Virus record (IMG/VR): IMGVR_UViG_3300036861_000507
Location: 1-64,000 of that record
From: a virus
Length of the DNA stretch: 64,000 bases
Strand: one strand, 5' to 3'
The notes under the pieces were generated by a model. The model worked only from the letters and a program-made list of their open reading frames with translations, did no database searches and had not been told where the DNA came from. The position numbers and the translations under genes are program-made. Shown one piece after another: positions 1 through 31,574 of this stretch. Each line of letters opens with the position of its first letter. The stretch's first letter is position 1.

Positions 1-1913
1 ATCAGCTTGGGATTGGCGATGCCGAGCCGGGTCTGGGCCTCGAGGCGCGCCTCGAGCAGCATCTCGCGCGCCGTGATCGGATCGGTTCTGAGCGTGGTGA
101 ACAGCTTGCCGTTGATGCCAGCCGGGATGCGTTGGCTCTCCTGCGCCCGCTTGATGAAGGCGGCCGCCTTGGCGATCTCCGGGGCGGGCTGGAGGCGCAG
201 ATCGTCGTCCTGGCGCACCGTGATGCTGCCGTCCTCTGCGACCGACATCTGCGGCCCGCTGCCGCGCTTGAGGTTGCCGCCCGAGATCGCCTTGACGGGA
301 TCGGACGTGCGCAACTCCTTGATCGTCTGCCAGTCCTTCGCGGCCTTGTCATAGACCTTGGCAGCCGAGGCGTAGCGTTCGCCCTGGGCCACACGCTCGG
401 AGGGGGCGAGGCTCGAGATGTGGGCGTAGGCCTCGTCCTCGGTCATGCTGGCGAGCGGCGCGGTGGCCTTGAAGCCCATCACGGCCTCGTCGAGCGCCCC
501 CTTGGCCTTGGACAGCTGGTTGGGAGTGAGGACGGTCCGGGCGCGGTCGAGCGCGGTCTGGCCGGCCTCGTCGGCCGGGACCACCCCGGTTCGGGCCGCC
601 TCCGCGGCGGCATCCTTCAGATCGCGCTGCGTGGTATCGGAGAGAGCGATGCGTGCCCTGGTGAGCAAGGCATGACGCCGCTTGGGGGAGAGGTGGAGGT
701 ACTTCCCGGAGGGCGGCTCTCCCGTCTCACTCGCTGGCTTGGAAGCGGGGAGTTGCGCGCCGTCGGCGTCGGTGGCGGGTTCGCCCTCTCCGGCTGGCTT
801 CATGCCGGCAAACGACGTGATCCCGCGTTGGGAGACGGGAAGCGGCTTGGCGTCTTTGGCCACCTCGAAGTGCATCGGGTCCGGCTTAGAGAAGTCCCCG
901 CCCCACTTGAGCCCCCACTTCGCGGCCACGCTGCGGGCGAGCTCCGGGTCGATGGCCCCCTTGGTGCCTTGCGCGTTCTCGGCCCAGTTGACGTCGATGG
1001 CGCGGCCGGAGGCATGCTCGGAGGGTGTATTGGTGCCGCGGATGTTGCGCGGATTGTAGCCGCCGGACTGGTCGCCCTTGATGTCGACGCCGGCCGCCTC
1101 CAGATCGCTGATCGCACCGGCGAAGCGCTCGGCATGATCGCCCGCCACCCGGAAGCCAGCCCCGGACCCGGTCCGGACCGTCGCCATGCCGTCGTTGTGG
1201 CGCTCGATCGGGAGCGTGCTCGATGGGGGTGGAAGGCCGGTGTCTTTGGTCCGCGCCGGCTGCTGCAGATCGCGGATGATCTGATCGAGCGCCTCGCCCC
1301 GGTTGATGCGCCAGTCGACGTTCTGCTCCTCGAGGTCATCCAGATGCTTTCTGCGCACCTCGTCCTTTTCGATCGGGGACAGGTATGGATTCTTGGAGAG
1401 CAGGCTGTCGTAGTCGGCCCTTGCAGAATCGAGGTCGCCAGACTGCGCCAGCCGGTTCTTGTGGTCCTCCAGCGCGTTGATGGAGGAGCGCGCCTGCTCC
1501 TTGCGGGCGAAGACCGAGCCCGTCCCGTACAGTTGGCGCTCGGTGCCGAACAGCTTGGCGTCATACTTCGGCTTGAGCTCGCTCGGGACGCCGGCAACGA
1601 ACTCCTTGGCGCGCTCCTTGTAGCCTTCGGCCCATTGGTCGGGGAAGCCTCCGGCTTGGCCGGGCTCGACCGCGCGCATCTGCTCGTCGAGGTCGCGCTC
1701 CTGCTGCCACTTGAACTCCTGGAACTTGGCCTCGGTCTCGAACTCCTTGGCGGCCATCTCGTGCTTGTAGAGCATGTCGCCGACGCCCGACACGGCACTG
1801 CCCAATTGCGCCATGCCCTGGCCGACGGCCGAGCCATCGGCGCGCGCGATGGCGCGCCCAGTGCGGGCGGAAGGCAAGCCGCCAAGATCATCGCGCGATG
1901 GCAACTTAGCCGT
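1..1913 (-). CDS. Internal virion protein with M15-type peptidase domain (3' end off window)
   Basis: The reading frame is open for 637 codons and runs off the left edge. The N-terminal ~200 residues are charged and helical, as in phage internal virion proteins. Residues ~245-350 resemble the M15 (VanY-like) peptidase fold: SEHASGRAID gives a zinc-ligand pattern at H300 and D307, and DPMHFE gives H348. A virion peptidase of this kind would cut peptidoglycan cross-bridges during DNA entry (inference). No ATG, GTG or TTG sits at the expected place. AAGGAG lies 7 nt before ACG at 1913, giving a MAKLPSRDDLG start typical of such proteins; the next in-frame option is TTG at 1904. It is the last virion gene seen in the late operon. 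Confidence 0.8.
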
Positions 1914-1926
1914 GACACAGCTCCTT
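1911..1926 (-). promoter_or_regulatory. Strong ribosome binding site with ACG initiator
   Basis: AAGGAG (1926-1921) is followed by a 7-nt spacer and then ACG GCT AAG. The frame upstream is closed by a TAA, and no usual start codon lies within normal distance. The site therefore argues for ACG initiation, or for an ATG changed to ACG by mutation or sequencing error. Confidence 0.6.
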
Positions 1927-1998
1927 GGTGATGTGGTCGTTTTGTGGGATTAACGCGAGCGCGCCGAATGTGATCAGACCACTGCGCATCAGGCGCAC

Positions 1999-2493
1999 CT
2001 AATAATAGTGGCCTGCAGACGCACGCCGCGGCGCATACTTGTCCGCGATCGAGGAAATCCCGCCGAGGATGGTCGCCCCCGCCTTGTAGTAGGAGCCCTG
2101 CTTGGCGGCCTGGCCCTCGAACCGGCGACCCTCGGCCTGCGCCTCCAGCCCGGCCCGGCGCGAGGCCCCGCCATAGCGCGCCATGCCCTCCTGCAACTCC
2201 CCGTACTCGGCGATGTCCTCGGAGAGGTTCAGAGAGGTGGGGTCGGTGGCGGAGAAGCCGGAGGCCGCGGCCCGGTTGGTCAGGGTCGACAGCGCGAGCT
2301 GCTTCTTGCGGCGGTACTGCTCGGCCTCCTGCTGGCCCTGCGCCATCTCCTCCTTGCCCTTGAGGTCGAGCTGGGCCGCCTCGTAGTTGGCGGCCTGCTG
2401 GGCCGACTTACCGGAGGCAAGCGTGCCCATGGTGCTGATGGCCGTTCCGGCCACCGTCGCCAACGTCGATGCGACCAATGCTAGTTCTGCCAT
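1999..2493 (-). CDS. Small internal virion protein (T7 gp14-like position)
   Basis: This 164-residue protein has an N-terminal hydrophobic/alanine-rich segment (~1-30), then a long helical stretch rich in Gln, Glu and Ala (~30-130). That is the usual shape of the small core protein ejected with the DNA in T7-like podoviruses. It sits between the GNAT-like gene and the large M15 virion gene, where gp14-type genes are expected. The role is inferred from position and shape; no catalytic motif is visible. Confidence 0.6.
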   Translation of the reverse strand: MAELALVASTLATVAGTAISTMGTLASGKSAQQAANYEAAQLDLKGKEEMAQGQQEAEQYRRKKQLALSTLTNRAAASGFSATDPTSLNLSEDIAEYGELQEGMARYGGASRRAGLEAQAEGRRFEGQAAKQGSYYKAGATILGGISSIADKYAPRRASAGHYY

Positions 2494-2496
2494 TCT

Positions 2497-7721: not shown

Positions 7722-8816
7722 TTAGATCGCCGACGCGTCATGCAGGAACTGCACGATGCCCGACTGTTGCAGGAGCTTGGCGCCGGTGAACGAGGAGGCA
7801 CGCGCGAACGAATAGTCCTGCTCGTCGTCGTAGCCGATCTTGGTGTCGAGACCCTCTCCCGAGTCGAACGCGGAACCGACGGCATCGCGATGGTAGAAGT
7901 AGCACTTCTCGCTTGCCGTCCCGACGCCGGTGAGGTTGGGATGGAAGATCCAGTTGAAGCCTGCCCAGCGCATCATGCGCCGTGCCGGCCCCGCGAGGAA
8001 CTTCATCTCGACGTAGTCGATCTTGGTGGCCTCGGGGATTTGCATGATGTAGCCGCGCACCGCAGGGGTGGCGACGGCGAACATCTTGTCCTCCTCCTCG
8101 ACGGGCACCTCGTTCTCGCCGAGCGTCACCATCGCCTTCGCGGCAACTGACAGCGCGAAGGTCGCGGCCGCGCCGAGGTTCGAGGTCGCCGTGTCGAGCT
8201 GCGTGATGACGTCAGCATCGAGACGGCGGTTCAGAACCTTGCGCGTGGTCTCCTGCATCAACCTCTTCTGGTCGCCCTGCGACTGGAAGATGTTGAACCT
8301 CGTCTTTCGCACGAGGTCATGCCTGCTATGTTCGCTTGAGGTCGCTACTCTCAAACCGCGTCGGTATTGACGCTGCTTCGGATTGCTCCGAAGGCCAGAC
8401 CATATCATCACCCCTGTGGGGTGCTGGGCGCTTCGGGCCGCTTGGCCCTACTCCTCGAAAGGATGGTCGTTGCACCTTCCGATGTGGGAATTCCCACATC
8501 GGCTTGGCTCAGGATTGTCCCGATGGGAGGTTCCCTGAGTTCACCCAGTTTGCGACGTGCATTGCTGCACGAAGGAGCCGCATGACTCGACCAGCGTCGC
8601 GGTCGTCTGGGTCATTGAATCGGCGCGAGCCGGGATCAGACCGTTGATACCGCGGGTTACTGCAGCGGCACCGCCACTGCCGGCGACCAGGAACGTCGCC
8701 TGGTTGCCCTTGATCACGGCCTCGGTAACAGTCGTTTGCCGAAGCCACGACATACCCTCTTCAAAGGTCGCCACGATCTGCTGGCGATATTGAATTTGGG
8801 GTGCGCTTTCTGCCAT
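7722..8816 (-). CDS. Major capsid protein, two exons (8816-8585 and about 8323-7722)
   Basis: Exon 1 encodes MAESAPQIQYRQQIV to TATLVE, and exon 2 resumes at HDLVRKTRFNIFQSQGDQ and runs to the stop at 7722. Together they make a ~277-residue capsid protein of the T7/P22-sized podovirus type, a family in which TL-x-E-x-HD runs on without a break. The reading frames on either side of the gap do not join unless 8584-8324 is removed. The start is ATG at 8816, 9 nt after AGGAG; the ATG at 8825 touches the ribosome site and is less likely. Unspliced RNA would give only short truncated products. Confidence 0.85.
8324..8584 (-). ncRNA. Group I intron inside the capsid gene
   Basis: The interval holds the conserved core of a group I intron. 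AACUCAGGGAACCUCC is followed by GGACAAUCCUGAGCCAAGCC, with P4 formed by CTCAGG (8539-8534) and CCTGAG (8513-8508). A perfect P6 hairpin lies at 8502-8479. P7 is GACCAT (8468-8463) with ATGGTC (8403-8398), and a P9 hairpin lies at 8393-8376. At the 5' site, exon GAGT pairs with intron GCTC to give P1 with the expected U-G pair. Intron CATGC pairs with exon GCATG as P10. The frame requires exon 2 to begin at 8323, one base off the usual terminal G. No internal ORF is present. Confidence 0.88.
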
Positions 8817-9004
8817 TGTTGGCATCTCCTAGTTGGTTGAGATGCCGTCGTTCTGGTTGTCCTTTTCCGATGCGTTCACGGGTTGCCCCGCCGCGAGGAC
8901 GAGGGCCGCTTGCGCAGCCAAAGGCGCTTCACGAACGGTGGGTGGAAAATGACTGCCGTCCTGGCGCCGGCGAGCCGGGTTGGCCAGACGTTGGCAGTCT
9001 GGTA
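8817..9004. other. Capsid leader region with small inverted repeat
   Basis: This 188-nt stretch between scaffold stop and capsid start has no convincing gene. It contains the inverted repeat CCAGAC-N7-GTCTGG (8984-9002) and the capsid ribosome site AGGAG near 8826-8830. A promoter or processing site for strong capsid expression is possible, but I see no clear promoter. Confidence 0.4.
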
Positions 9005-14785: not shown

Positions 14786-15207
14786 CGGATGCGGTCCAAA
14801 TCATCTGCCGGGCACCCGTTATCTACGAACCACGCCTCGCCCCACGGCGGCGCCCAGGCCTTGCGCGTTTCCCGGATCACCGACACCGCCTTGAGCTCCA
14901 GCGCCATTGCGCACGCGACCCGGTGGGAGCCGTCGAGCAGCTCGCCGTCGGGGTCGATGGGGATCGCTCCCTGAGGCAGGAACCCATGGCTCGCCATCGA
15001 GGCGCAGAGTTCCTTGGCGGCTTCCGTGTAGTCGACGAGGCTCGTCTTCCACTTGTCGGTGGCGAGGCCTGCCTTCATGCGGGCGCCGGAGCGCTTGTCG
15101 AGGTGCCAGCGATACAGTCGCTCGGCGTCGACGTCACCGCTTCCACCAGGGAGGAGGAACCGAAAGTAGCGGACCTTCAGGGCAATATCCCATCGCCGCG
15201 GCGTCAC
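14758..15207 (-). CDS. ParB-like domain protein
   Basis: The protein (~149 residues from GTG at 15207; the exact start is uncertain) contains IDPDGELLDGSHRVACAMAL, the DG-x-HR-x-A motif of ParB/sulfiredoxin-like domains. WGEAWFVDNGCPADDLDRI follows. Similar genes occur in bacterial surface-polysaccharide clusters beside small kinases. Its 5' part overlaps the kinase gene by about 74 nt. The substrate is unknown. Confidence 0.55.
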   Translation of the reverse strand: MTPRRWDIALKVRYFRFLLPGGSGDVDAERLYRWHLDKRSGARMKAGLATDKWKTSLVDYTEAAKELCASMASHGFLPQGAIPIDPDGELLDGSHRVACAMALELKAVSVIRETRKAWAPPWGEAWFVDNGCPADDLDRIRQDWKSLAA

Positions 15208-15796
15208 AAGCGCCCTGGTCGGAGAACTCGAGTAGCTGGGCTCGGGCTGCCTGGATGGACTGGTGCTGCACGTCAATTTCAATGACCGGGACACCGCGCT
15301 CACGAAGCACCTCTTTTGCCAAAGCAATCGACGGGATCATGAACGCGACCTGATGCGATCTGTTCTCGTGCCGAGTGGCCGGGTTCTTCTCTCGCTCGCG
15401 GTTGCGCGCCAGGATGGTTTCGAGGTCGGCCTCCAGGAACGCCACGCCCACCGATACCGGCATTCGCCACAGGGCGGGGCGGATCAGATTGATGTCGCGG
15501 CCCAGCTCCTGCAAGCGCCAGCCGAAGCCCAGAATGCGCTGCACCAGCCCGGTCTGCACGAAGGTCCTGTCGTCCTGCATCCGCTCGACAGTCGCCATCT
15601 TCTTGGCGGAGCGGTCGTTCATGCGCAGGACGGCCTCGAAGCTCGGGTGATCGCGAACGAGACCGCACAGGGTCGTGATCTCGTCCAAGAACATGCGCCA
15701 GTAGGCGGGTGGGAGCTTGCCGTCCCACGTGACGGATTTGTCGCCCCAGACGGGATAGCAGAGGGTGGACTTTCCGCAGCCTGGAGGGCCGGCCAC
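15134..15796 (-). CDS. P-loop kinase-like protein
   Basis: This 220-residue protein starts almost at its Walker A motif AGPPGCGKST, and later has VGVAFLEADLETILARNRERE, typical of small nucleoside or sugar kinase-like ATPases. In frame upstream, ILHVDV can be read before the GTG used here, so the true start was probably upstream and may have been disturbed by the HNH gene that ends 2 nt away. It is likely part of the glycan-related island (inference). Confidence 0.6.
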   Translation of the reverse strand: MAGPPGCGKSTLCYPVWGDKSVTWDGKLPPAYWRMFLDEITTLCGLVRDHPSFEAVLRMNDRSAKKMATVERMQDDRTFVQTGLVQRILGFGWRLQELGRDINLIRPALWRMPVSVGVAFLEADLETILARNREREKNPATRHENRSHQVAFMIPSIALAKEVLRERGVPVIEIDVQHQSIQAARAQLLEFSDQGACDAAAMGYCPEGPLLSVPPPWWKR

Positions 15797-16717: not shown

Positions 16718-17431
16718 TCATCGCAGGTGCTCACTTATCCAGCGGTTGCGCGCCAGCACCTCCGGTCGATCATGCTTGCCATGGCTACCGGGAAACGTGA
16801 CCACGCACGCGTTCGCCGGCAGCTCCCCATCGACCCCCGATCCCGGTGTATCGGCACGCGCAAGCCGGTAGACCCCGTCCCGAACCCCATCGAAGTACGG
16901 CACATACGGCCCAAGAGCATCGGAGAGATACCACTGGTCGTCCTTGGCCGGCACCTTCTTGCCGAGGTCGAGGAAGCACTGCCACAGCTCGGGCATGGAG
17001 CCGCACTTGTGCAGCAGCAGAGACGTATTGTAGAGGGCGCGTCCTGGCCTGGATGGGTGCCGGGCCGGGTTCCTCCACAGCACTAGGTCCTCGGTGCGGG
17101 TCACGAGGTGGTCCATGTTGCCGACGATGATGGTGTCCAGGTCCAGCTGCAGGACCCGATCGCCGATCATGGCGTAGGCCTCCATGCAGAAGGTGAACAG
17201 GCGCACGAAGCACGTGCCTGGCACGTGCGTCCGCTTGTCGATGTCGACAGCCCTGATGTGCTGGTCGCAGACGAACGCCTCTGGCTGATCCGTGATGACC
17301 ACGAACTCGTGCGGCACGGTCAGGTGGCGGGCGACCATCCTCTGCAGCAGGCGGACGTCGTCAGGCGTGTAGGGGGCGGCGAACTTGCTGCCTGGGTCTG
17401 GTTGCCAGAAGTACGTGCAGACAACTACCAT
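16718..17431 (-). CDS. Glycosyltransferase, paralogue 1
   Basis: This 237-residue GT-A-type protein starts MVVVCTYFW. The shared family signature follows: VRLLQRMVARHLTVPHEFVV, HVPGTCFVRLFTF, LQLDLDTIIVGNMD (a DxD motif for nucleotide-sugar/metal binding), WRNPARHPS, LLLHKCGSMPELW and VTFPGSHGKHDRPEV. It shares this layout with the genes at 19140 and 20269. The acceptor is unknown; cell-surface glycan or virion protein are both possible. It overlaps the upstream gene by 1 nt (TGATG). Confidence 0.78.
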   Translation of the reverse strand: MVVVCTYFWQPDPGSKFAAPYTPDDVRLLQRMVARHLTVPHEFVVITDQPEAFVCDQHIRAVDIDKRTHVPGTCFVRLFTFCMEAYAMIGDRVLQLDLDTIIVGNMDHLVTRTEDLVLWRNPARHPSRPGRALYNTSLLLHKCGSMPELWQCFLDLGKKVPAKDDQWYLSDALGPYVPYFDGVRDGVYRLARADTPGSGVDGELPANACVVTFPGSHGKHDRPEVLARNRWISEHLR

Positions 17432-17880
17432 CAGACCCCCAGACACTTATTGCGCTCAGCCCAGAGCGGGGCCATGCGACCGGGGATCAGGCCACTGATG
17501 GCGCTCGGTTCCGCACTGTGGAGCATGATGGCGTCCTGCTCCTCATCGTAGCGGACGACATAAGCACGGTGCGAGGACTTCGGCAAAAGCCCGTTGATTC
17601 CGCGCGTTGCGGTGGGGTCAAAGAACAGGACGATCGGATCGGACCAGATCACCACGACGTCGTTAGAGGGTGGCTCGCGCTTCGACAGATCGCAGGGCTT
17701 GCCGCTGGCCTTGATGAGCGTCTCGAACTCAGCGTAGGTCAGCGTCTTCGGCGTGATGTCGGGCTGCGAAGGGATGTGCCGCCCCACCACGGCTTCGAGC
17801 TCGGCAACAGTCGGCGAACGCGGCTGCGCATTGATGAGTTCGATAAGCGCGCTGGTTATCGCCGTCACGGGCTGGGTCAC
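17431..17880 (-). CDS. Island protein of unknown function
   Basis: This 149-residue protein is read from GTG at 17880, which overlaps the upstream methyltransferase stop (GTGA). It contains YAEFETLIKASGKPCDLSK, DVVVIWSDPIVLFFDP and TRGINGLLPKSSHR. The last segment recalls TRGINGLIPAR in this phage's capsid. No enzyme motif is seen. It is co-transcribed with the glycosyltransferase that follows. Confidence 0.5.
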   Translation of the reverse strand: MTQPVTAITSALIELINAQPRSPTVAELEAVVGRHIPSQPDITPKTLTYAEFETLIKASGKPCDLSKREPPSNDVVVIWSDPIVLFFDPTATRGINGLLPKSSHRAYVVRYDEEQDAIMLHSAEPSAISGLIPGRMAPLWAERNKCLGV

Positions 17881-18572
17881 GCCGCCCTCGCGAAGCGCAT
17901 GACGCGGTAGTCGAGGACGTATCCAGCCGCGCTCTCCGCCAGTTTCCAGTCCGGCGTCAGCACGCTCTCGAACAACTCCTGGCTCCTGGCCTCGCGATGA
18001 TTGGCGACGCGGGCTGTCAGGATGATCCGTCTGCGGGCCACCCGCTGCAGCTCCCGCATCATGACCTGATTGTCGGCCGGGGACAGCCAGCGCGAGATTC
18101 GGCAGGCAACCGCCGCGTCCACGCTCTTGTCCTCGAGCCCGCTCTGGCGCACGTCGCCGATGATGAGGGAGCCCTTGTCCTTGATCCGGAGCGGCAGGAT
18201 GGTGTTGCGCTGGTTGGAGGCGGCCACCCACTGCTCCACTTGGTGCTGCGGCATGACCTTGAGGGCCGACTGCACCAGCATGTCGCCGGAGATGTCGGCG
18301 CCTACGAAGTGGAACCCTTTTTCACCGTAGAAGGTGAGAAATCGCCCCGTCCCCACCGGGCAGTCCAGGACCACGGAGCCCGCCGGCAGGTCGGAGAGCA
18401 TGCCCTCGATGAGCCGCTGCTCGCATGTCCACTTCGGGGAGGACTCGCGCTTGGCGTCGTAGCCCTCGGCGATGGGGCCGTGGTACTTCTCCGCGCCGTT
18501 CGCTCCGGGTGCCTGCGGGTGCGGGCGCTGCTGCTGGACGGGCGGGAGGTATTCCATCAGGGGGTGGGTCAC
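17877..18572 (-). CDS. Class I SAM-dependent methyltransferase
   Basis: This 231-residue protein has motif I VVLDCPVGTGRF (~68-79), an acidic VGADISGDML at the end of strand 2, and IIGDVRQSGLEDKSVDAAVAC as motif IV region. The order matches Rossmann-fold small-molecule methyltransferases. Its target is unknown; the setting in a glycosyltransferase island suggests a sugar. The start overlaps the upstream stop (ATGA). Confidence 0.75.
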   Translation of the reverse strand: MTHPLMEYLPPVQQQRPHPQAPGANGAEKYHGPIAEGYDAKRESSPKWTCEQRLIEGMLSDLPAGSVVLDCPVGTGRFLTFYGEKGFHFVGADISGDMLVQSALKVMPQHQVEQWVAASNQRNTILPLRIKDKGSLIIGDVRQSGLEDKSVDAAVACRISRWLSPADNQVMMRELQRVARRRIILTARVANHREARSQELFESVLTPDWKLAESAAGYVLDYRVMRFARAA

Positions 18573-18823: not shown

Positions 18824-18825
18824 CG

Positions 18826-19143
18826 TCATCTCCAGAACTCCCGCTCCGTGTCTGCCTGGGCTTCTTTCTTCTTCCAAATCCACGGACGGCGGTTCAGCGC
18901 CCAACAGCGATAGGTCCGCGTCTTGCTTAGGCCGTGCGTCATGGCGTGGTTCTTCGCCCATTCGCGCCTGTGGCAGCCGCAGCTGGTAGTCACACCTTTG
19001 CGAAGCGTGTTTTGCAACACGAGCTTCTTGGTGCCGCACTCGCAGAGACACATCCACTGTGTGTGAGCGTGGCCGCGCGGAAACTTCCGCTTTGGCGCCG
19101 CTTCCAGGACTGTCCAACGTCCGAACCGCTGCCCGATCATCAT
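18826..19143 (-). pseudogene. Truncated HNH-family endonuclease remnant
   Basis: The ~106-residue product has the same N-terminal module as the intact endonucleases (IGQRFGRWTVLE, MCLCECGTKK, TTSCGCHRRE), then HGLSKTRTYRCW. That is where the HNH core begins in its relatives. It then ends within 25 residues without YGGRG, IDRIDNDKGY or CRWAT motifs. The catalytic core is therefore absent. The other two frames were checked and no displaced core was seen. Confidence 0.65.
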
Positions 19144-19922
19144 CGGTACCACTCGCGCACCCAAGGATGCTTCTCCTGCACTTCAGGTTGCGATGGGCTT
19201 CGATCACCTGGGAAGTAGATGATCCTCGCGTTCTCCGGCAGCTCCGACTGCACGCCCGCGCCCATCTTGCCGTTGAACAGCCGGCCGGCGCCGTAGATGC
19301 CATCTTCGGAAGTCCAGTGCGGGATGTTCCACTCCCAGCCAGCTTCGGGATAGGCCGCGTTCAGCCTCTCGCTGATCCAGCACTGCTCAGCGCCGCCGAA
19401 CCGGCGGTTGAGCGGCACCGAGCCGACCTTGGCGCCGTTGACACTCCCGGCCATGGCGCGCTCGTCGAAGTCCTCCCATAGGAAGGAGGTCGTCCCGACG
19501 GTGAACAATTGCATGCTGCCCTGCACGAACCCGCGCTTGCGCCCGTCCTCGGTGTTCGGATCGTGGTTCGGGTTGCGCCAAAAGCACATCGGCTCAGCGC
19601 GGGTCACGATCGGGTCCATGCTCCCCGTCACCACACAATCGATGTCCATCAGCAGGACGCGCTCGCCTTCCTTGGCGACCCCTCCGGGCTTGTGCGCCTG
19701 CAGCTTGACGAGACACGTCCCCGGCACATGCTTGGTCATGTCCAGCGGCACCGTATTCATGAAGTCGATAAGATCCGGCCGGTGGGTGACGCAGACCCGG
19801 CGGTGCGGGATGGTCAAATGGCGGGCGACCATCCGGTCCCAGATGCGCACGTCCTCGGGGGTGAGCGCGACCTGGCGGTTGCGGGCGGGATCGACCCAGA
19901 AGAAGGCACAGACGACCAGCAT
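19140..19922 (-). CDS. Glycosyltransferase, paralogue 2
   Basis: This 260-residue protein has the same layout as the genes at 16718 and 20269: MLVVCAFFW, VRIWDRMVARHLTIPHRRV, HVPGTCLVKLQ, LLMDIDCVVTGSMD (DxD), FWRNPNHDPN and IIYFPGDRSPSQPEV. It is longer in the middle and has an NRRFGGAEQCW insertion. This is GT-A fold; donor and acceptor are unknown. Its stop overlaps the truncated HNH gene start. Confidence 0.78.
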   Translation of the reverse strand: MLVVCAFFWVDPARNRQVALTPEDVRIWDRMVARHLTIPHRRVCVTHRPDLIDFMNTVPLDMTKHVPGTCLVKLQAHKPGGVAKEGERVLLMDIDCVVTGSMDPIVTRAEPMCFWRNPNHDPNTEDGRKRGFVQGSMQLFTVGTTSFLWEDFDERAMAGSVNGAKVGSVPLNRRFGGAEQCWISERLNAAYPEAGWEWNIPHWTSEDGIYGAGRLFNGKMGAGVQSELPENARIIYFPGDRSPSQPEVQEKHPWVREWYR

Positions 19923-20268: not shown

Positions 20269-21006
20269 TCAAACCCTGTGCTGATTGATCCACGGTGCAG
20301 ATTCAAGAACCTCCGGTAGCCAAGGCTTCTTGGCCCCAGGAAAGAATACGATGCGTGCGTTCTCTGGCAACGTGCCCACTACGCCAGATCCTTGCCAGCG
20401 AGGGTGTCCGTTTTCGAGGCGGTAAACGCCATCATCTTGATCCCAATACGGTACTTCGCGCCCCAGGACGAGGGATAAGTACTGGTCATCGTCAACCGCT
20501 GGCAGTGACTTTGGATCAAACTCGGACCATAGCTGCGTCATCGTTCCGCATCGATGCAGAAGCAATGACCCGTTCCAGAAGCCGTATGGGTGCTCTTTCC
20601 GGTGAGCGTAGTGGAGCTGCGTCTTCTCCATCCACCACCGCGCTGGGTTGCGCCAGAGAACAAGGTCGTCATGTCGATCGACAAGCCTATCTAGGCTACC
20701 CACCACCACCGTATCGAGATCGATACGCAGCACTCGTGCACCAAGGACATCTCGCGCTTGCGGCGTAAACGTGAAGAGACGGACGAAGCAAGTACCAGGC
20801 ACATGCGTCGTCCAGTCAATCGGAACCGCAGCAATATCTCTGTCGTCAGCGAAAAGCTCTGTCCTGTCCGTGACGACCAAGAACCGATGCGGAATCGACA
20901 GATGACGCGCGACCATGCGCTGCAGCAGCCTGACGTGGTCTGCTGCATAAGCAGTGTACTTGCTTTCCTGGTCCGGTGACCAAAGGTAAGCCACCACACT
21001 GAGCAA
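20269..21006 (-). CDS. Glycosyltransferase, paralogue 3
   Basis: This 245-residue protein is read from TTG at 21006. It repeats the family signatures: VRLLQRMVARHLSIPHRFLV, HVPGTCFVRLFTF, LRIDLDTVVVGSLD (DxD), WRNPARWW, LLLHRCGTMTQLW and IVFFPGAKKPWLPEV. It is closest in layout to paralogue 1. GC content looks lower than in its neighbours, hinting at separate acquisition. Confidence 0.76.
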   Translation of the reverse strand: MLSVVAYLWSPDQESKYTAYAADHVRLLQRMVARHLSIPHRFLVVTDRTELFADDRDIAAVPIDWTTHVPGTCFVRLFTFTPQARDVLGARVLRIDLDTVVVGSLDRLVDRHDDLVLWRNPARWWMEKTQLHYAHRKEHPYGFWNGSLLLHRCGTMTQLWSEFDPKSLPAVDDDQYLSLVLGREVPYWDQDDGVYRLENGHPRWQGSGVVGTLPENARIVFFPGAKKPWLPEVLESAPWINQHRV

Positions 21007-21008: not shown

Positions 21009-21599
21009 TCAGACGCCCCCGTTCATCCGGATCACCTGCCCCGTGATGTACCCCTGATCCGTGTACAGGAGGAAGTGGATTGTGCGCGCCACTTCTTCGG
21101 CGCGTAGGAACCGTTGCTTCGGCGACTCACGTCGACGCTTTTCCAGGTTCTCGGTGTCCTCCCGGCACAGCGTCATCGAGCAATCCTCGATGATCGACGG
21201 CGCCACGCACACCAGCTGCTGCTCGGGCTTCAGTCTCTTGGTCTCGACGTAGCGGTGCAGGGCTGCCTTGGCTCCGGCGTATGCCCCATCGTGGGACCAG
21301 GTGAACCCGGATTCGGAGCCCACCACGCAGATGCGGGCCCTGGCGTTGTTCTCAAAGATGTGGTCGCAAAGTTGGATAGGACGGATGCAGTTGACGTGCA
21401 GGCTCTCGGCGCTCTGAGCTGGCGTCTGGTCGAGGAGTGGGCGTGGTCGCAACAGGCCCGCGCAAAGAAGATAGCGTTCGCACCCAATGAGCGGCGGCGC
21501 GTAGGATGCGCGCTCAATCGGAACGACCTCTTCATCCTTCGGCAACAGTTGCCGCAACTCGGATACGATCTTGGAGCGGTAGCCGGTGACGGCGAGCAT
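21009..21599 (-). CDS. Short-chain dehydrogenase/reductase-like protein
   Basis: This 196-residue protein starts MLAVTGYRSKIVSEL. It has LLCAGL near the NNAG position, VGSESGFTWSHDGAYAGAKAAL with the YxxxK pair, and ends GYITGQVIRMNGGV, the usual SDR terminus. The N-terminal glycine motif is reduced to VTGYRS, so cofactor binding may differ. An NDP-sugar or small-molecule reduction is possible. ATG overlaps the HNH stop upstream (TGATG). Confidence 0.7.
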   Translation of the reverse strand: MLAVTGYRSKIVSELRQLLPKDEEVVPIERASYAPPLIGCERYLLCAGLLRPRPLLDQTPAQSAESLHVNCIRPIQLCDHIFENNARARICVVGSESGFTWSHDGAYAGAKAALHRYVETKRLKPEQQLVCVAPSIIEDCSMTLCREDTENLEKRRRESPKQRFLRAEEVARTIHFLLYTDQGYITGQVIRMNGGV

Positions 21600-22234
21600 C
21601 AGGCGCGTCGCGCACCAAGTGGTGCCGTGATGGCGCGCTCGACGGGCCATCCCCTGTCAAGTCGCGAGCGCAACGTATCGTAAGGCAGGCCCGTCCGCTC
21701 GCAGACCTCCGACAGCGTCATAACTTGATCCTGGAACGGTACGAGGCGGTTCTTGCGACTATTCCGCGCCTGCTCTTTCTTCGTCGCCCATCGGCAGTTG
21801 CCGGGTTCGTATCCTTTGTTGTTATCGATGCGGTCTAGGCTCAACCCATCGGGTCGATTGCCCATGTCGACAACGAACGCGTCAAACGTCTGCCAACGCT
21901 CGCACACGGTGATGCCGCGCGCACCATAGTCCTGCCATCTCTCGCCGATTTCACGCGTGCACCGCGTCCACATTGACGCCCACGATCTGTAGGTAGGCGT
22001 ACGCTTGTAGCCGGTTGTGTGTCCGTGGGTTCTGAGACGCGCGCTTGCCTTAACGCGAGCCACGCAACCGCAGCTCTTGGAGTTTCCGCTCTTCAGGCTA
22101 GGGTCGGCGATAGGTCTCTCGTTGCCACAATTACAGCGACACAGCCACCGTTTCTGCAGCCTACGTCTCTTGCCAACGAAGATCGGCGGCCCAAGACGAA
22201 TGACTGTAAGCTTTCCGAAGCGCTGCCCTATCAT
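21599..22234 (-). CDS. HNH homing endonuclease
   Basis: This 211-residue protein starts MIGQRFGKLTVIRL. It has one C4 module (LCRCNCGNER, SKSCGCVAR), an HNH core with YGARGITVCERW, LSLDRIDNNKGYEPGNCRWAT, and a C-terminal helix-turn-helix (MTLSEVCERTGLPYDTLRSRL). The start ATG overlaps the stop of the FAD oxidoreductase gene (ATGA). It is a full-length relative of the genes at 15798 and 18826. Confidence 0.85.
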   Translation of the reverse strand: MIGQRFGKLTVIRLGPPIFVGKRRRLQKRWLCRCNCGNERPIADPSLKSGNSKSCGCVARVKASARLRTHGHTTGYKRTPTYRSWASMWTRCTREIGERWQDYGARGITVCERWQTFDAFVVDMGNRPDGLSLDRIDNNKGYEPGNCRWATKKEQARNSRKNRLVPFQDQVMTLSEVCERTGLPYDTLRSRLDRGWPVERAITAPLGARRA

Positions 22235-23277
22235 GCCGCCACCACCGTTCGATCCTCTGCCAAGAGAAGATCGCACACGCGATTCGCGGCAGCAACGGCC
22301 GTCCCTAGCTTTCCACTTAGAACGGTGATGATCTGATCATCGATTTGGCGCGTAAGGGTGGGCCTCGCATCGGTTTTCTCTTGACCCGCGAGAACGCACC
22401 GAACGGTGTAGCTAGACCCGATGTGCCGAGCCTTCTCCACACCCGGCACGTATCGGTTAAGGTCCGCCACCACCTCACTGAAGCGCGTTACGGGCGGGTC
22501 GGCGATCAGGCCGCGATCGATCAGGCCCGCCAAGTGACCCGGCACCTCCGCTTCGAGCCCCGTGTTGCTGGCGTGAATCGTATGCACAACATGCCCCAGC
22601 ACGTGCAGATCGGTGGCGTCGAGCGGGTCGAGGCAGCCGAACGGCCCGTCGATCACCACGATGGACGTGTCACGGAAGGCCTCCGGCAGCTTGACCACGG
22701 GCCGCTCCACCATTTGGAAGCGGTAGGCCTCGGGTGGGCAGCCCAGATCGGCCAGCACCGCATTGAGCCGGGAGTAGGTGGCCACCACGATGCGGTCGAA
22801 CTGCCGGCGGATGGACCGCGGCGCCGTCGCGCCCAGATGCACCGCAACCCCGGCGTCGGCCACCTTCTGGCGAACGATGGCCTGCAGGACGCCCAGGTTG
22901 AGGCGCGGCTCGCTCACGCTGAAGACGTGGCCCTCTTCCGAGAATGGCAGGTCCTCGGTATCGAGGAACGCACGGTAGGCCTCGCCGCCGACCTGGCTGC
23001 CCACGGGCGGTACGATGTAGAACTGCTGGCCGGCGTCGATCACGGCGGCACCGTACTCCTTGCGGAAGGCGCGCTCGGCGAGCCGGCTCTCGCGGCCTGT
23101 GCGGCTGTCTCTGGGGTAATGAAAGCCGCGGTGCAGCCGGCTGTAGGTGCTGGCCGTCGCCCCCATCAGCAACCCGCGCTTGGCCTCGTAGAGATGCACC
23201 TCGTGCCCGGCGCGGGCGGCGAGGATGGCGGCGGTGGCGCCAAACAAGCCCCCGCCGATCACGCAAACCCGCATCAT
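22231..23277 (-). CDS. FAD-dependent oxidoreductase
   Basis: This 348-residue protein begins with the dinucleotide-binding motif CVIGGGLFGATAAILAARAG followed by an acidic YEAKRG turn. It then has SRLHRGFHYPRD, as in DAO-type oxidases. The substrate is unknown; related genes occur in glycan clusters. It lies between a conserved 133-residue gene (ATGATG overlap) and an HNH gene. Confidence 0.75.
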   Translation of the reverse strand: MMRVCVIGGGLFGATAAILAARAGHEVHLYEAKRGLLMGATASTYSRLHRGFHYPRDSRTGRESRLAERAFRKEYGAAVIDAGQQFYIVPPVGSQVGGEAYRAFLDTEDLPFSEEGHVFSVSEPRLNLGVLQAIVRQKVADAGVAVHLGATAPRSIRRQFDRIVVATYSRLNAVLADLGCPPEAYRFQMVERPVVKLPEAFRDTSIVVIDGPFGCLDPLDATDLHVLGHVVHTIHASNTGLEAEVPGHLAGLIDRGLIADPPVTRFSEVVADLNRYVPGVEKARHIGSSYTVRCVLAGQEKTDARPTLTRQIDDQIITVLSGKLGTAVAAANRVCDLLLAEDRTVVAA

Positions 23278-23678: not shown

Positions 23679-23837
23679 TCAATATCCCTCGGCGATGGTC
23701 TTCTTGCGCTTCTTGGCCATGTCGGCCTTCATGTACTCCTTGGCCACGGCGATGGGCGGCGCCTTCTTCTTGGTCGGCTTGAAGCCATGGGCAATGGCTT
23801 TCATGAAGCGCGCTTGCTTGGCGGATTTCGAAGGCAT
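23679..23837 (-). CDS. Small basic phage protein
   Basis: This 52-residue protein (MPSKSAKQARFMKAIAHGF to KRKKTIAEGY) is highly Lys/Ala-rich and probably binds nucleic acid or packages with DNA. Similar short KSxAQARF-type proteins are common in phage morphogenesis regions. It starts inside the stop of the FkbM gene (ATGA-like overlap). Confidence 0.55.
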   Translation of the reverse strand: MPSKSAKQARFMKAIAHGFKPTKKKAPPIAVAKEYMKADMAKKRKKTIAEGY

Positions 23838-24646
23838 CAGATGCTCCTGTTCTTCGCAATCAGCATGCAGAACCCCGTCTCCTCGCGGTGCAGGATGTCG
23901 AAGCCGGCACCCGTCAGGATGGCCTCGCAGGCCTCCAACGTGCGCTCACCGTTCCGCTCGGCGCTGGCGCAGACGCTGACGTACGCGGTGATCTTCAATG
24001 TCTCGTGCGCGCCCTCCAGCACCTCGGGCTCCGCCCCTTCCGCATCGCCGCAGATGAGGTGAACGCGGTCGATACCTTTCTCCGCAACCAGAGCGTCGAT
24101 GCGCCGCGCCGGCACCACGCTCTGACGGTCGGAGGCGTTGAACAGCGAGCTGTCGGCGCTCTCCGGCTTCAGATGCAGGATGAGGTTCGCGTCCTCATTC
24201 CAGGCCGCGACCGGAGCGACATCGATGGCCCGGCCTTGCGCATTCGCATCGAGCAGCGGGATCACGTGCGGGTCCGGCTCGATCGCCAGCACCCGCGCCC
24301 CGGCATCGGCCAGCGTGATGGCGACCTCGCCGATGTTGGCGCCGAAGTTGACGATCTGGGCGCCAGCGTGCATCGGGACCAGCTGCTCGTCGGCGTCGTG
24401 GCCGAAGACGTAGCGGGCGGCCACTCTGTTGCACCGCCTGGCAACTCCGTGGCGATAGAACCGGAAGGCCCGCTCTGGCCGGCAGGCGATACGTAGCTTG
24501 CCATCGAAGAGCCAGTGGATGCCGCCCGCATCGGTGGTGGTCCAATACTCCCCGCCGTCACCTGCCTTGTCGAGGTTCTCCCACACCAGGTGGGTCGACC
24601 CATCGGCTGCGGGCTCGGTGCGGTATTGCAGGCGCTCGCCCGCCAT
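23837..24646 (-). CDS. FkbM-family methyltransferase
   Basis: This 269-residue protein has IVNFGANIGEVAITLADAGARV (motif I), LAIEPDPHVIPLL, and ICGDAEGAEPEVLEGA, the signature of FkbM-type O-methyltransferases. Those often methylate sugar hydroxyls on glycans. It fits the glycosyltransferase island. The start is ATG at 24646, just after the downstream end of a 233-residue gene. Confidence 0.78.
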   Translation of the reverse strand: MAGERLQYRTEPAADGSTHLVWENLDKAGDGGEYWTTTDAGGIHWLFDGKLRIACRPERAFRFYRHGVARRCNRVAARYVFGHDADEQLVPMHAGAQIVNFGANIGEVAITLADAGARVLAIEPDPHVIPLLDANAQGRAIDVAPVAAWNEDANLILHLKPESADSSLFNASDRQSVVPARRIDALVAEKGIDRVHLICGDAEGAEPEVLEGAHETLKITAYVSVCASAERNGERTLEACEAILTGAGFDILHREETGFCMLIAKNRSI

Positions 24647-24649
24647 GCC

Positions 24650-25351
24650 TCAGAAGTCCTCCGGCGGCGGCTCCAGCAGCCCGCTCTCGGCCGCGACCTT
24701 GACCTTGATGCCGGCCTTGGTGGCGGCCCAGATCATGTTCTGCGTGCCTTGCCGCTGCTTGCTGTACTCGTCCTTGCCCATCTGCAGGATGCCGTAGAGC
24801 GGCATCTCCGGTGGACCGTCGCCTCCCATGATGCCCTTGGCGACCATCGCCTCGATGTCGAGAATCGCCTTGCCCATGATCAGCGAGATCGAGGATGTCC
24901 AGGTGAATGGGCCGAACCGATCCTTGACGGCTCGCTCGGGGTAGAGCGCCGCGTTGGGGAACAGCAGGTTCCCTTCGCGGGTACAGAGGTTCATCGCGAC
25001 CTGGTCGCGCATCCACAATCGCTTCTGCGTTTTGGCGATCCATTCGAGGTAGGCGTAGCGTCTGCTGCGGTCAAAGATGGGGTTGTGAATTTCGAAAAAT
25101 TCGTCGACCCGCGGCAGCGGCGAACAGAGCGGCTTGCCGTCTTTCCCGATGCTGCCCCTCGCTCCGAATGGACTATTGTCCGGAGAGCAAGCGTAAATCA
25201 AGAAACCGGGATCAGAGAACGGCGCGAGGTGTTTTGTATGTGGGTTTGAGCCGCAGATCGCGATACCCTTCAAGCGGGCCTGCGGCGCGATCGAAGTCTG
25301 AGCCGCTCCCGTCGGCACGTCGGCTGTGGTGTCATCTACCTGATCCAGCAT
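24650..25351 (-). CDS. Phage protein of unknown function
   Basis: This 233-residue protein from ATG at 25351 (3 nt after GAGGGG) contains GIAICGSNPHTKHLAPFSD, then IYACSPDN and FFEIHNPIFD, and ISLIMGKAILDIEAMVAKGI. The opening strand-turn looks Rossmann-like. The family is seen in podovirus genomes but has no function I can name. Possible upstream start at 25423 would cover the end of the HNH gene. Confidence 0.6.
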   Translation of the reverse strand: MLDQVDDTTADVPTGAAQTSIAPQARLKGIAICGSNPHTKHLAPFSDPGFLIYACSPDNSPFGARGSIGKDGKPLCSPLPRVDEFFEIHNPIFDRSRRYAYLEWIAKTQKRLWMRDQVAMNLCTREGNLLFPNAALYPERAVKDRFGPFTWTSSISLIMGKAILDIEAMVAKGIMGGDGPPEMPLYGILQMGKDEYSKQRQGTQNMIWAATKAGIKVKVAAESGLLEPPPEDF

Positions 25352-25947
25352 TGTCCCCTCATTCCAGCCAGGCCCATCTCTCTCGACGCCATATTTTGCT
25401 GATCGTTCCGAAACTGACGCCATACTGCGCAGCCAGCAACTTCCGCGGTGATCGTCCCCCGTGCGGCGCGGATCTCACGGATATCCGACTCGGTCAGCTT
25501 CGCCCAAGGGCTGCGTTCCCCACGATTGTCCGTCCCATGGATCACTTTATCGGCAAGGTTTTCTGACGGGGTTTTCCACACGATGTGACTTGGCGTGCAG
25601 CACCCCTCATGCCCCTTGCCACACAAGTGCGCAGCTTGATGTTTGGGGGACGGCGCAGCCCCGTGGATGATTTGACAGACGACCCTATGAACAGGCTGTT
25701 GGCGGCCTTCCCATTTCATTACGCCATAGCCGTTCTGCGTCAGGCGGGCATACGGCCACACGAGGCAATCATCGCCGCCGTACTGAAGAACAACTTGCCG
25801 GAGGTAGCGAATGCGGTCGCCGTTCGGCGCTCGGCCTTTGAGCGGGTCGCCATACAATTTCCAGCGTCGGTAATGGTTGCAGCAAAAGCCGTAACCAAAG
25901 CGCCGCTTGCCGCAGCCGTCGACAGAGCATATGCGTGGGGAAGCCAT
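25336..25947 (-). pseudogene. HNH endonuclease with C-terminal frameshift
   Basis: The 203-residue reading has an N-terminal zinc knuckle (CSVDGCGKRRFGYGFCCNHY), an HNH core (HRVVCQIIHG, HQAAHLCGKGHEGCCTPSHIVW) and KLTESDIREIRAARGTITAE. It then changes to unrelated sequence. In another frame the expected helix-turn-helix continues as LLAAQYGVSFGTISKIWRRE and ends in a stop at 25359. One extra G near 25438-25441 explains the shift. It may be a true mutation or an assembly error. Confidence 0.8.
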
Positions 25948-25977
25948 CTTCGAACCTCATCCGTTCGGGGCTGGTCA

Positions 25978-26011
25978 GAACGCGCTGAGTGCTCGAACAC
26001 TCAGCGCGTTC
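25978..26011. terminator. Long perfect hairpin, probable bidirectional terminator
   Basis: Fourteen base pairs (GAACGCGCTGAGTG with CACTCAGCGCGTTC) close a 6-nt CTCGAA loop. It lies between the DTG-rich 284-residue gene and the HNH gene. No long T-run follows on either side, so termination may need Rho, or the hairpin may stabilise the upstream mRNA. Confidence 0.55.
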
Positions 26012-26048
26012 GCTATTGGTACTATGCGGTCATGGAGCCTTCAAGAGG

Positions 26049-26903
26049 CTAGAGTCCGGTATCCCTGTTTGCGCTGACGTTGATGTAGTCGGTGTCGAAG
26101 GGGAGCGCGGCCGCATCCGATGCGAACGCGATGACGACCGGCACCAGCGCCGTGGCGGCATTGATCGGCTGACTGATGCGGCCTTCCTTCTTGCCGTTGA
26201 CGTAGAAGTCGGCAAACAGCTGGCCGCTGTCGCTGTCGAGCGCCACCTCCAGGGTGTCGTAGACGTTGGCGGTCGGGGACGACGTGAGGGTCGCAGTCTG
26301 ATCGCCGGAGTCGCCGGCCACTGATCGGGCAGCAATGCCACGCCACACCGTGGTGCCGGAGTTGCCGCCGTAGACGAAACCGATGCCGTCGGCCATGTTG
26401 GTGATGATGCCGCCTCCGGTGTCATACGCGGGCATTTCGGCCCCGCCGCTGTCGGAGAACCCGACAAACAGCTCGGAGCCCGCCAAGGTGCCGATCTTGA
26501 CGCGGGCGGCAAAGCGCAGGTTGCCTTGGTTGGCCTTCCACTGCTTCTGCAGGCCCTGGGTGAATCCGATCGCGGCCACCGGGGTCAGCACCGCATCGGC
26601 AGATGTGGTGATCCTGAGCACGCCGCCCACGCCCGTGACCTTGACGACCGAGCCGATGCCGGCGACGCCCGTGTCGCCGTTGACGCTGGTCCAGTCGAAG
26701 GCGCCGGTGTCGCCCAGGAAGTCGTCGAACAGGGCGATCGTGTCGTGGGATCCCGGCATGACGATGCGCGACTTGCCCTCGCCGCCGGTGCCGAAGGCGT
26801 TGCGCGAGACCAGCGTGTTGTTGGGGGCGATGTAGGCCTTGGGGCCCCACAGGGACTTCTGCTTGGTGAACGGATCGGTCTTGTCCTTGGTGTAGTCGGT
26901 CAT
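26049..26903 (-). CDS. DTG-rich virion protein (capsid/tail decoration)
   Basis: This 284-residue beta-rich protein opens MTDYTKDKTDPFTKQKSLWG, then has DTIALFDDFLGDTGAFDWTS, and ends FDTDYINVSANRDTGL. The shape matches phage minor head or tail proteins with a jelly-roll-like repeat. It has four Asp-Thr-Gly and three Asp-Ser-Gly tripeptides, one at the very C-terminus. It probably sits on the particle surface (inference). Confidence 0.65.
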   Translation of the reverse strand: MTDYTKDKTDPFTKQKSLWGPKAYIAPNNTLVSRNAFGTGGEGKSRIVMPGSHDTIALFDDFLGDTGAFDWTSVNGDTGVAGIGSVVKVTGVGGVLRITTSADAVLTPVAAIGFTQGLQKQWKANQGNLRFAARVKIGTLAGSELFVGFSDSGGAEMPAYDTGGGIITNMADGIGFVYGGNSGTTVWRGIAARSVAGDSGDQTATLTSSPTANVYDTLEVALDSDSGQLFADFYVNGKKEGRISQPINAATALVPVVIAFASDAAALPFDTDYINVSANRDTGL

Positions 26904-28174: not shown

Positions 28175-29173
28175 ATGTCCGATGCGTTCGTGGTCGCCGC
28201 CGTCATTCCGCTTTACAACGGACATAGGTTCATCTTCGAGGCGATCGCCTCCGTTCTCAATCAGACCCGTATTCCCGACGAAATCATTGTCGTTGATGAC
28301 GGGTCTACCAATCCGCTCGGAGCGCAAATCGTCGAAGCATTCATCCCCAGAGACAAGCGCGTTCGCCTTCTACGCAAACCCAACGGGGGGCAATCCTCGG
28401 CACGCAACTTTGGCGTGGCTCACTTCACCGCCACCCACATCGCCTTCCTGGATCAGGATGACCGCTGGTATCCTGGGCATGTCGAAGCGCTGCTGCGGCC
28501 GTTCAAGAAGAAACGGGACGGTGCGCCGCTTGGGTGGGTCCACAGCAATGTGGACGAGATCGACGAGGGCGGCAATCTCGTCTGCAAATCCATTCTTTCT
28601 GTGCACGGCAAGGATCGCGCGAAACCGCACTTGTTCGATTGCTTGAGCGACGATCTGTTCATCACGCCATCAGCCACGCTGATATCGCGCGCCTCCTTCG
28701 ATGCAGTCGGAGGCTTCGATGAACGCCTCTGCGGCTACGAGGACGACGATTTGTTCCTGAGATTGTTTCGGGCTGGATACGATAGCGCATATCTGAACGC
28801 ATCGCTGTCGCAATGGCGCATTTATGGGTCGTCGACATCGTTCACGCCGCGCATGCGACAATCGCGCGACATCTACGCCAGGAAATTGATGGCCGCTTTC
28901 CCTGACAATCCAGCGCGCAATCTTTACATCACCCGCGACCTGATCGGTCCTCGCTTTGCCCGTTTGAACTATTCCGACCTGCTGCACGGCCTGGCAACAC
29001 ATGACATCGCCAGAGTGGATGGCGCTCTTAGCAGCCTGCGCCCGTTCTCCAAATGGCTGCGACAGAGGCAACGTATCGTGGTGATGTTGGCGTCGATCTT
29101 GCTGCGCGCACGATTGTTGCGACTGCCCTATACGTGGCACATGATTGACGCCTATCGCACGGTGCGCCGCTAG
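28175..29173 (+). CDS. GT2-type glycosyltransferase, opposite-strand moron
   Basis: This 332-residue protein starts at ATG 28175, 8 nt after GGAGGG. It has VAAVIPLYNGHRFI, IIVVDDGST, NGGQSSARNFGV, FLDQDDRW (DxD-like) and GGFDERLCGYEDDDLFLR, all hallmarks of family 2 GT-A enzymes. A basic/hydrophobic C-terminus may contact the membrane. It is the only large plus-strand gene in the left half and has lower GC than its neighbours, so it probably arrived as a moron with its own promoter. Confidence 0.85.
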   Translation: MSDAFVVAAVIPLYNGHRFIFEAIASVLNQTRIPDEIIVVDDGSTNPLGAQIVEAFIPRDKRVRLLRKPNGGQSSARNFGVAHFTATHIAFLDQDDRWYPGHVEALLRPFKKKRDGAPLGWVHSNVDEIDEGGNLVCKSILSVHGKDRAKPHLFDCLSDDLFITPSATLISRASFDAVGGFDERLCGYEDDDLFLRLFRAGYDSAYLNASLSQWRIYGSSTSFTPRMRQSRDIYARKLMAAFPDNPARNLYITRDLIGPRFARLNYSDLLHGLATHDIARVDGALSSLRPFSKWLRQRQRIVVMLASILLRARLLRLPYTWHMIDAYRTVRR

Positions 29174-30990: not shown

Positions 30991-31241
30991 ACGACGGGCT
31001 CCGTGACCCGCTTGGTGATGGTCGCGCCGATGGCGGTAACGTCTCCCTCCAATTTCAGGGCATCGGTGCCGATGTCCTGCATGTCACCTTCCAGCAGCAG
31101 CACGCCCTCCTGATCACCCTCCAAGGCCAACAGGAAGGAGATGCGCGAGGTGTTGAAGGCTCCCGTCGGGGCCTCCGACACGCGCACGGTCTTCCCGCCG
31201 GATGCAGCGCCGCTGATCCGCTTGGTGACGGTCGTGGGCAT
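30987..31241 (-). CDS. Small virion-region protein
   Basis: This 84-residue protein (MPTTVTKRISGAASGGKTVR to ATITKRVTEPVV) has short similar ends (TKRISG, TKRVTE), suggesting a small beta-sandwich built from two related halves. The stop overlaps the tail fibre start (ATGA). Possible fibre-connector; not recognised. Confidence 0.55.
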   Translation of the reverse strand: MPTTVTKRISGAASGGKTVRVSEAPTGAFNTSRISFLLALEGDQEGVLLLEGDMQDIGTDALKLEGDVTAIGATITKRVTEPVV

Positions 31242-31247
31242 AGGGTG

Positions 31248-31574
31248 CTAGCGGTTCTCGCTGGACCAGACGTAGAGCCGGCCAGCGCCAGTGGCGCCGG
31301 CCTTCGTGACGCGCAGGCGCTCACCGTGGGCATGGACCACGACGCCAGTGTCTGTGGGGTCGAAGGAGGCGCGCAGTTGAGGTGAAAGCCCAGTCGACAC
31401 AATCAGCCAGCCATCGCCCGTATCGCCAGCCCGCGGATAGAGCCCGATCTCGAGCGAGCCGCCGGTGTCGCCGGATATGTTGACCCAGCGCCACTGCTCG
31501 ACCCGACCCGAGAGATTGGGGCCCGTGTCGGTCTGCGTGCCGGTGTCGTTGAGCTCGAAAAGATGGCGCTGCAT
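31248..31574 (-). CDS. Small DTG-rich virion protein
   Basis: This 108-residue protein begins MQRHLFELNDTGTQTDTGPN and contains QWRWVNISGDTGGSLEIGLY, RAGDTGDGWLIV and PTDTGVVVH. Five Asp-Thr-Gly in 108 residues is the highest density in the window. Related beta-rich proteins in marine and soil podoviruses also carry GDTG turns as far as I recall. A particle-surface role is likely (inference). Confidence 0.65.
   Translation of the reverse strand: MQRHLFELNDTGTQTDTGPNLSGRVEQWRWVNISGDTGGSLEIGLYPRAGDTGDGWLIVSTGLSPQLRASFDPTDTGVVVHAHGERLRVTKAGATGAGRLYVWSSENR

Follow-up and report, generated by a model that had tools for sequence, protein, structure and literature searches.

Sequence-defined O-glycosylation of bacterial proteins has so far been described for the Bacteroidota only, where the acceptor is D-(S/T)-(L/I/V/T/A/S/M), glycine occupies the third place in about 2% of cases and abolishes glycosylation when it is engineered there in B. 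fragilis, and a bacterial pathway acts on non-cytoplasmic targets (PMC12871550). In phages, virion glycosylation is known from the mycobacteriophages Che8 and Rita (Freeman et al. 2023, as cited in PMC11256854), in which phage-encoded glycosyltransferases are reported to decorate particle proteins, the modification is described for the major capsid protein and a glycan shield has been proposed. Here we describe the tripeptide Asp-Thr-Gly (DTG), which is accumulated in tail proteins of a podovirus-like phage whose genome also carries an island of glycosyltransferase and methyltransferase genes. The window that we analyzed, 64,000 bases in length, comprises bases 1-64000 of the 93,968-base IMG/VR virus record IMGVR_UViG_3300036861_000507, with genes called by a custom script rather than by a standard annotation tool. 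All clade and outgroup data are IMG/VR contigs, most of them fragments and none from an isolate, and the whole analysis was made from sequence.

We consider it likely that the phage encodes an O-glycosylation of its tail that takes place in the cytoplasm and uses DTG as its acceptor sequence. The function of DTG as a tag is strongly supported, and a sugar as the modification is what we infer. A preliminary description of the window had likened the motif to that of the Bacteroidetes. The likeness extends to the Asp directly preceding the putative acceptor Thr and to the enrichment of the motif in the target proteins, and it ends there, as the enzymes here would be phage-encoded, the targets are cytoplasmically made virion proteins, and the third residue is Gly, which is strongly disfavored after S/T in the non-cytoplasmic Bacteroidota targets (PMC12871550). 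The system resembles that of the mycobacteriophages in that phage-encoded glycosyltransferases would decorate the particle, and differs from it, as described for the major capsid protein in PMC11256854, in that the tag is on the tail and missing from the capsid protein. It differs further in that a three-residue acceptor can be seen in the proteins, and in the type of phage, podovirus-like with a T7-type set of tail proteins.

The preliminary description had counted 30 DTG in six window proteins, and our recount gave identical numbers. All six genes are on the minus strand: tail tube B (2863-6192; 14 DTG and two Asp-Ser-Gly, DSG), tail tube A (6199-6843; 3 DTG), a 91-residue protein (7432-7707; 3 DTG and one DSG), a 284-residue protein (26049-26903; 4 DTG and three DSG), a 108-residue protein (31248-31574; 5 DTG) and an M15 protein (3-1814; 1 DTG), with no DSG in tube A, the 108-residue protein or the M15 protein. 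When each protein was shuffled, the mean DTG counts were 0.84 for tube B, 0.09 for tube A, 0.24 for the 7432 protein, 0.31 for the 26049 protein and 0.11 for the 31248 protein, and P was ≤ 0.001 for each of these five. The M15 copy had been counted into the pattern as well; its shuffle mean is 0.19 (P 0.17) and its homologues have no DTG, so that the copy is incidental and the pattern is one of five proteins. In the whole record, DTG ranks first by z-score among over-represented tripeptides (32 seen vs 7.0 expected), with extra single copies in a 92-residue open reading frame at 38873-39151 and at 67956, outside the window. As had been claimed, TerL, the portal and the 606-residue tail fibre contain no DTG, and none was found in the major capsid protein, the scaffold or a giant 4406-residue protein of the record. 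The claim of mixed codons was also borne out, the 29 DTG of the five patterned proteins being written in 13 different nine-base words. Because the codons are mixed and no such DNA word stands out, the signal is at the peptide level; a restriction, packaging or recombination site in the DNA was considered and rejected, as Markov counts found no GACACNGG-type word over-represented in the window.

To compare the pattern among relatives, we used 37 IMG/VR relatives collected with tail tube A as the query, and, as an outgroup, 80 loci collected with a capsid-protein profile plus one contig, G019, reached via a profile of the 26049 protein. DTG is accumulated in a single podovirus-like clade, where it is found in the nozzle, in the adaptor and in three or four more proteins of virion type; it reaches 4.6-10 times its composition expectation in the six large clade contigs, and the larger contigs have about 30 to 60 sites per phage. 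Tail tube A is the adaptor (T7 gp11-like; phrog_394, E 1.6e-31) with DTG at residues 22, 62 and 122, and in an alignment of 22 sequences these three sites are invariant except for one site lost in L036; among the 37 relatives, one truncated contig is the only other exception. The clade homologues of tube A are 56-77% identical, and DTG is kept while its flanks vary. Tail tube B is the nozzle (T7 gp12-like; phrog_376, E 3e-122 over the full length), and each of its 18 full-length clade homologues has 11-22 DTG. Its alignment reveals entire DTG units gained or lost together with loop insertions, and DSG as the chief conservative replacement. At columns 433-438 the unit occupies one of two adjacent positions three columns apart, and when it lies upstream, a D-x-G remnant without Thr (DLG, DYG, DAG, DRG) is left over. 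DTG copies had been described as loop additions, which holds for tube B, where many are true insertions, and fails for the tube A copy between RRLS and EAVE, which is a substitution (RRLSDTGEAVE in the clade vs RRLSTVTDNVE in the outgroup).

The remaining carriers behave similarly. The 7432 protein, encoded between the major capsid protein and tube A (phrog_18004, E 5e-6), has 2-4 DTG in its clade homologues, and the 26049 protein, a probable structural protein ending in RDTG, has its gene at the island end, with position and orientation shared by 6/6 large contigs. Each of the five members of the 108-residue family that were aligned first, from the first contig set, has 5 DTG, at shifting positions. 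Fibre proteins of some clade relatives also contain DTG, 8-32 copies, some of them arranged in repeats of 11 residues (DTGLRxxIxDL type). In fibre-like proteins with 18-32 DTG (G021, 17674-19716; G020, 24429-26168; G004, 18128-19300), part of the spacing is exactly 11 residues, suggesting hendecad coiled-coil repeats with one tag each.

Outside the clade the motif is nearly absent from the same proteins. The mean DTG number is 2.87 in 23 clade sequences of tube A vs 0.00 in 75 outside, 14.9 vs 0.23 in tube B (outgroup range 0-2), 2.8 vs 0.06 in the 7432 family (80 outgroup homologues) and 5.9 vs 0.17 in the 26049 family (outgroup range 0-1). The outgroup contig G019 (52,006 bases) is instructive, because it has syntenic capsid, scaffold, portal, tube A, tube B, 7432-like and 26049-like genes, with 42% identity to the clade in tube A and 33% in tube B. 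No island glycosyltransferase, methyltransferase, P-loop, 24650, short-chain dehydrogenase (SDR) or FAD gene was found in it, its tubes A and B and 7432-like protein have no DTG, and its 26049-like and capsid proteins have a single DTG each, away from the sites tagged in the clade. A profile of the island glycosyltransferase matched 14/14 searched DTG-clade contigs that reach the island and 0/28 outgroup contigs; all 14 clade contigs and 3 siphophage contigs served as its positive control and were matched. As in phage virion glycosylation, the phage-encoded glycosyltransferases are conserved together with the putatively modified particle. The preliminary description had named beforehand, as an observation that could refute the idea, relatives without the island that keep the motif; the island-less relatives lack the motif as well, and the idea survived. 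Its alternatives, a calcium turn or a general property of the virion family, fit poorly with the absence of the motif from about 75 outgroup homologues.

DTG is also avoided in the rest of the clade proteome. The clade's other proteins, about 223,000 residues, contain 16 DTG vs 53.2 expected from dipeptides (P 2e-9), which is the third strongest depletion among 3,722 tripeptides tested; in the same proteins DSG occurs about as often as expected, as do most other DT-x and x-TG tripeptides. Because proteins hold either 0-1 DTG or at least 3, this depletion is independent of the exclusion cut-off. In the outgroup phages, 75 DTG were seen vs 91 expected. The avoidance extends to the major capsid protein (7722..8825, minus strand, gene interrupted by an intron), which has no DTG: 53/81 outgroup capsid sequences contain the motif vs 0/26 clade sequences. 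The outgroup copies (L195-L274) nearly always lie in a T-x-T-x-DTG-A/T loop, which is absent in the clade. Such a loss would be expected if a cytoplasmic enzyme modifies exposed DTG, and equally if a binding protein acts on it.

The placement of the tags was examined in structure models. The tube B model (mean predicted local distance difference test score, pLDDT, 81) matched nozzle proteins in Foldseek (8ck1 of Carin1, E 2e-37; T7 gp12, 7boy, E 6e-15). In this model, 10/14 DTG triplets are predicted to be all coil vs a base rate of 0.29 (P 0.001), in agreement with the loop placement claimed in the preliminary description. Tubes A and B resemble T7 gp11 and gp12 by tail protein families (PHROGs), and tube B also by the fold of gp12, from which it differs by its length (1109 residues), a discoidin-like insert and the DTG sites, those at residues 188, 241 and 272 being inside the insert region matched by phrog_17517. 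The tube A model is poor (mean pLDDT 61); its DTG sites are at helix or strand ends and their exposure is only suggested. The motif lies in coil in the nozzle model and in 11-residue repeats in the fibres; such different backbones are more in keeping with a tag than with an element of the fold.

The phage had been said to encode four glycosyltransferases and three methyltransferase-like genes in one island; the four were confirmed, three of phrog_1962 type and one of GT2 type, and of the methyltransferases only two. On the minus strand are two glycosyltransferases of the DDQ subfamily with a DLD motif in the alignment (16718..17431, phrog_1962 E 1.4e-10; 20269..21006, E 1.2e-9), one of the RFGG subfamily with an intact DxD, DID (19140..19922, E 4e-7), a class I methyltransferase (17877..18557; PF13649, E 5e-7) and a P-loop protein (GPPGCGKST; 15134..15796), which belongs to the same cassette as the glycosyltransferase and the methyltransferase and found no match in an NCBIfam search. 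The profile matches of the island glycosyltransferases range from E 1e-10 to 4e-7, and the aligned phrog_1962 members all have DLD, DID or DVD, with D97 and D99 invariant. Also on the minus strand, and variable between islands, are an SDR-like protein (21009..21599; PF13561, E 4e-13), a FAD/NAD-binding oxidoreductase-like protein (22231..23262; PF01266, E 1.6e-6) and an FkbM-family methyltransferase (23837..24646; TIGR01444, 77 bits against a cut-off of 37.7). A clade-wide 233-residue protein (24650..25351, minus strand) adjoins the 26049 protein. The GT2-family gene (28175..29173, plus strand; PF00535, E 3e-28) is outside the conserved set because only one other contig besides the window has it (2/19 contigs).

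The P-loop, glycosyltransferase and methyltransferase families are present in 6/6 large and 5/5 further DTG contigs and in 0/81 outgroup loci, and among the families present in all 11 DTG contigs, only these three have no match in the 81 loci. The 24650 protein is also in 6/6 and 5/5 DTG contigs, and has distant homologues in four outgroup loci without tagged tails, for which reason it was rejected as the sole determinant of DTG. The tree of island glycosyltransferases has two branches from DTG phages. The RFGG branch is monophyletic (99% local support), is found only in DTG phages, has exactly one copy per complete island and is also represented where the island has a single glycosyltransferase of the family (G002, G005, G023, G024), and the copy number of the DDQ branch varies between islands. 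From this distribution, the RFGG enzyme at 19140-19922 is the strongest candidate for recognizing DTG. The DDQ enzymes would be candidates for extending the glycan, and the methyltransferases at 17877-18557 and 23837-24646 could methylate it.

Taken together, the RFGG glycosyltransferase, of GT-A type, may act in the host cytoplasm on freshly synthesized tail proteins, prior to assembly or in the course of it, and attach a sugar to the Thr of DTG. Elongation of the glycan would fall to the remaining island glycosyltransferases, and capping or alteration to the methyltransferases together with the variable SDR and FAD proteins. The result would be a tail covered in numerous short methylated glycans. 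DTG would then be avoided elsewhere because any copy exposed in that cytoplasm would itself be modified. The coat might mask the tail from host enzymes or other ligands, stabilize it or serve adhesion.

Several observations weigh against this interpretation. All DTG phages form one clade (support 100/100), so that the gain of the motif and the gain of the island are a single coincident event, and their coupling counts once, however many contigs have it. The glycosyltransferase assignment comes from similarity to PHROGs and the DxD motif; the phrog_1962-type proteins had no glycosyltransferase-family match in Pfam and no significant PDB profile match, the best being a weak one to a galactosyltransferase around the DxD region (E 0.83). 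Ser barely replaces Thr and DSG is not depleted elsewhere, a strictness exceeding that of many O-glycosyltransferases. Finally, the cassette of glycosyltransferase, methyltransferase and P-loop protein is also found in unrelated siphophages without DTG enrichment. These siphophage-like contigs (L085-L091, L093, L097, L099) encode glycosyltransferases of the same family amid their head and tail genes, in most cases accompanied by the methyltransferase and the P-loop protein, and these glycosyltransferases are on a separate branch of the tree. A search of them for an alternative acceptor tripeptide found nothing prominent, and their DTG depletion is weak (6 seen vs 13.6 expected, P 0.02), with other tripeptides equally low. 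Because they lack DTG, the cassette is not sufficient for the motif, and the RFGG enzyme remains as the discriminating gene. Tetraselmis viridis virus S20 is comparable, with the same glycosyltransferase family among head and tail genes and with glycosyltransferase, sialyltransferase-like and methyltransferase genes.

We weighed cytoplasmic glycosylation against other explanations of the tag. A clade-specific virion or assembly protein, such as a fibre, a decoration protein or a chaperone, might dock on exposed DTG, with the motif avoided elsewhere to prevent mis-docking and the island present by coincidence. Docking would explain the conservation, the loop placement and the avoidance equally well, and the genes shared by the clade include that of the 24650 protein. 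However, it predicts a conserved clade-specific gene for a non-enzyme, whereas the clade-specific genes in the 11 contigs are those of the glycosyltransferase, the methyltransferase and the P-loop protein, and the 24650 protein is not confined to tagged phages; the wide variation of the site number between phages also fits a stoichiometric partner poorly, and we regard docking as unlikely. The cassette might instead place some other covalent modification on DTG, such as a phosphate added by the P-loop protein, whether or not the sugar enzymes take part. This would agree with the near-strict use of Thr as the acceptor and with the P-loop protein and methyltransferase being conserved as well as the glycosyltransferase. 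But the P-loop protein matched no kinase family, small P-loop proteins of such size usually act on small molecules, and the gene with one specific subfamily member per DTG phage is a glycosyltransferase, which makes this explanation a distinctly improbable one.

The motif could also be an unmodified structural or calcium-binding turn of the virion family, as Asp and Gly favor turns and most DTG of the nozzle model are predicted coil. This is hard to reconcile with the homologous loops of about 75 relatives that lack DTG, with its occurrence within the 11-residue fibre repeats, with its avoidance in cytoplasmic proteins, which would be unexpected for a turn motif, and with the loss of Thr from D-x-G remnants when the unit shifts, and we find it very unlikely. 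Least credible is that the island changes host surface glycans or modifies DNA, with DTG produced independently of it by drift or mutation bias on that branch. The restriction to one clade and the occurrence of the cassette in siphophages without DTG would allow it, but the mixed codons, the invariance, the gain and loss of units and the avoidance indicate that selection is acting on the DTG peptide, and a DTG carrier, the 26049 protein, lies at the island end in all the large contigs; we therefore consider this extremely improbable. With respect to the preliminary claim that the particle is decorated by the island at DTG, the absence of the motif from island-less relatives supports it, and the attachment of a sugar remains its conjectural part.

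Two other features of the genome were noted. A group I catalytic intron was identified in the major capsid protein gene (window 8376-8594, minus strand; Rfam RF00028, 72.9 bits, E 1e-16), and the capsid coding parts of G007, G010 and G018 are separated by about 1 kb, which points to an insertion of the same kind. The giant 4406-residue frame lies beyond the window (80030-93250 of the record, minus strand), clade relatives have comparable proteins of 3446-4977 residues, and these are probably internal virion proteins. As for relatives in other collections, a search of 50,697 phage records found no close relative of tube A, the 108-residue protein or a DTG-rich fibre, and a Synechococcus phage with 50% TerL identity was rejected as a cultured relative since it belongs to a separate lineage. 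No host was assigned because a single scan of bacterial genomes with the tube A profile gave no relative.

The cytoplasm is where phage structural proteins are synthesized and assembled, and phage particles are usually regarded as unmodified protein. A full-text literature search found no paper combining the DTG motif, phage and glycosylation, and if the sugar step holds, a phage-encoded, tail-directed virion glycosylation with a DTG sequon would be new. On balance, we favor the view that this phage lineage evolved its own sequon, in which a dedicated glycosyltransferase reads DTG and selection reshaped the proteome, with tens of sites gained in the tail and the copies in the capsid and in most cytoplasmic proteins removed. 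A tag that can be read from the genome would make virion glycosylation predictable from sequence, with the RFGG-type glycosyltransferase as the enzyme to test, and DTG may offer a short motif for glyco-engineering in the bacterial cytoplasm. If true, this would be a second sequence-defined O-glycosylation besides that of the Bacteroidota, one owned by a virus; a single viral enzyme system would apparently have driven selection across the whole proteome, with the motif enriched in the tail and avoided in other proteins.

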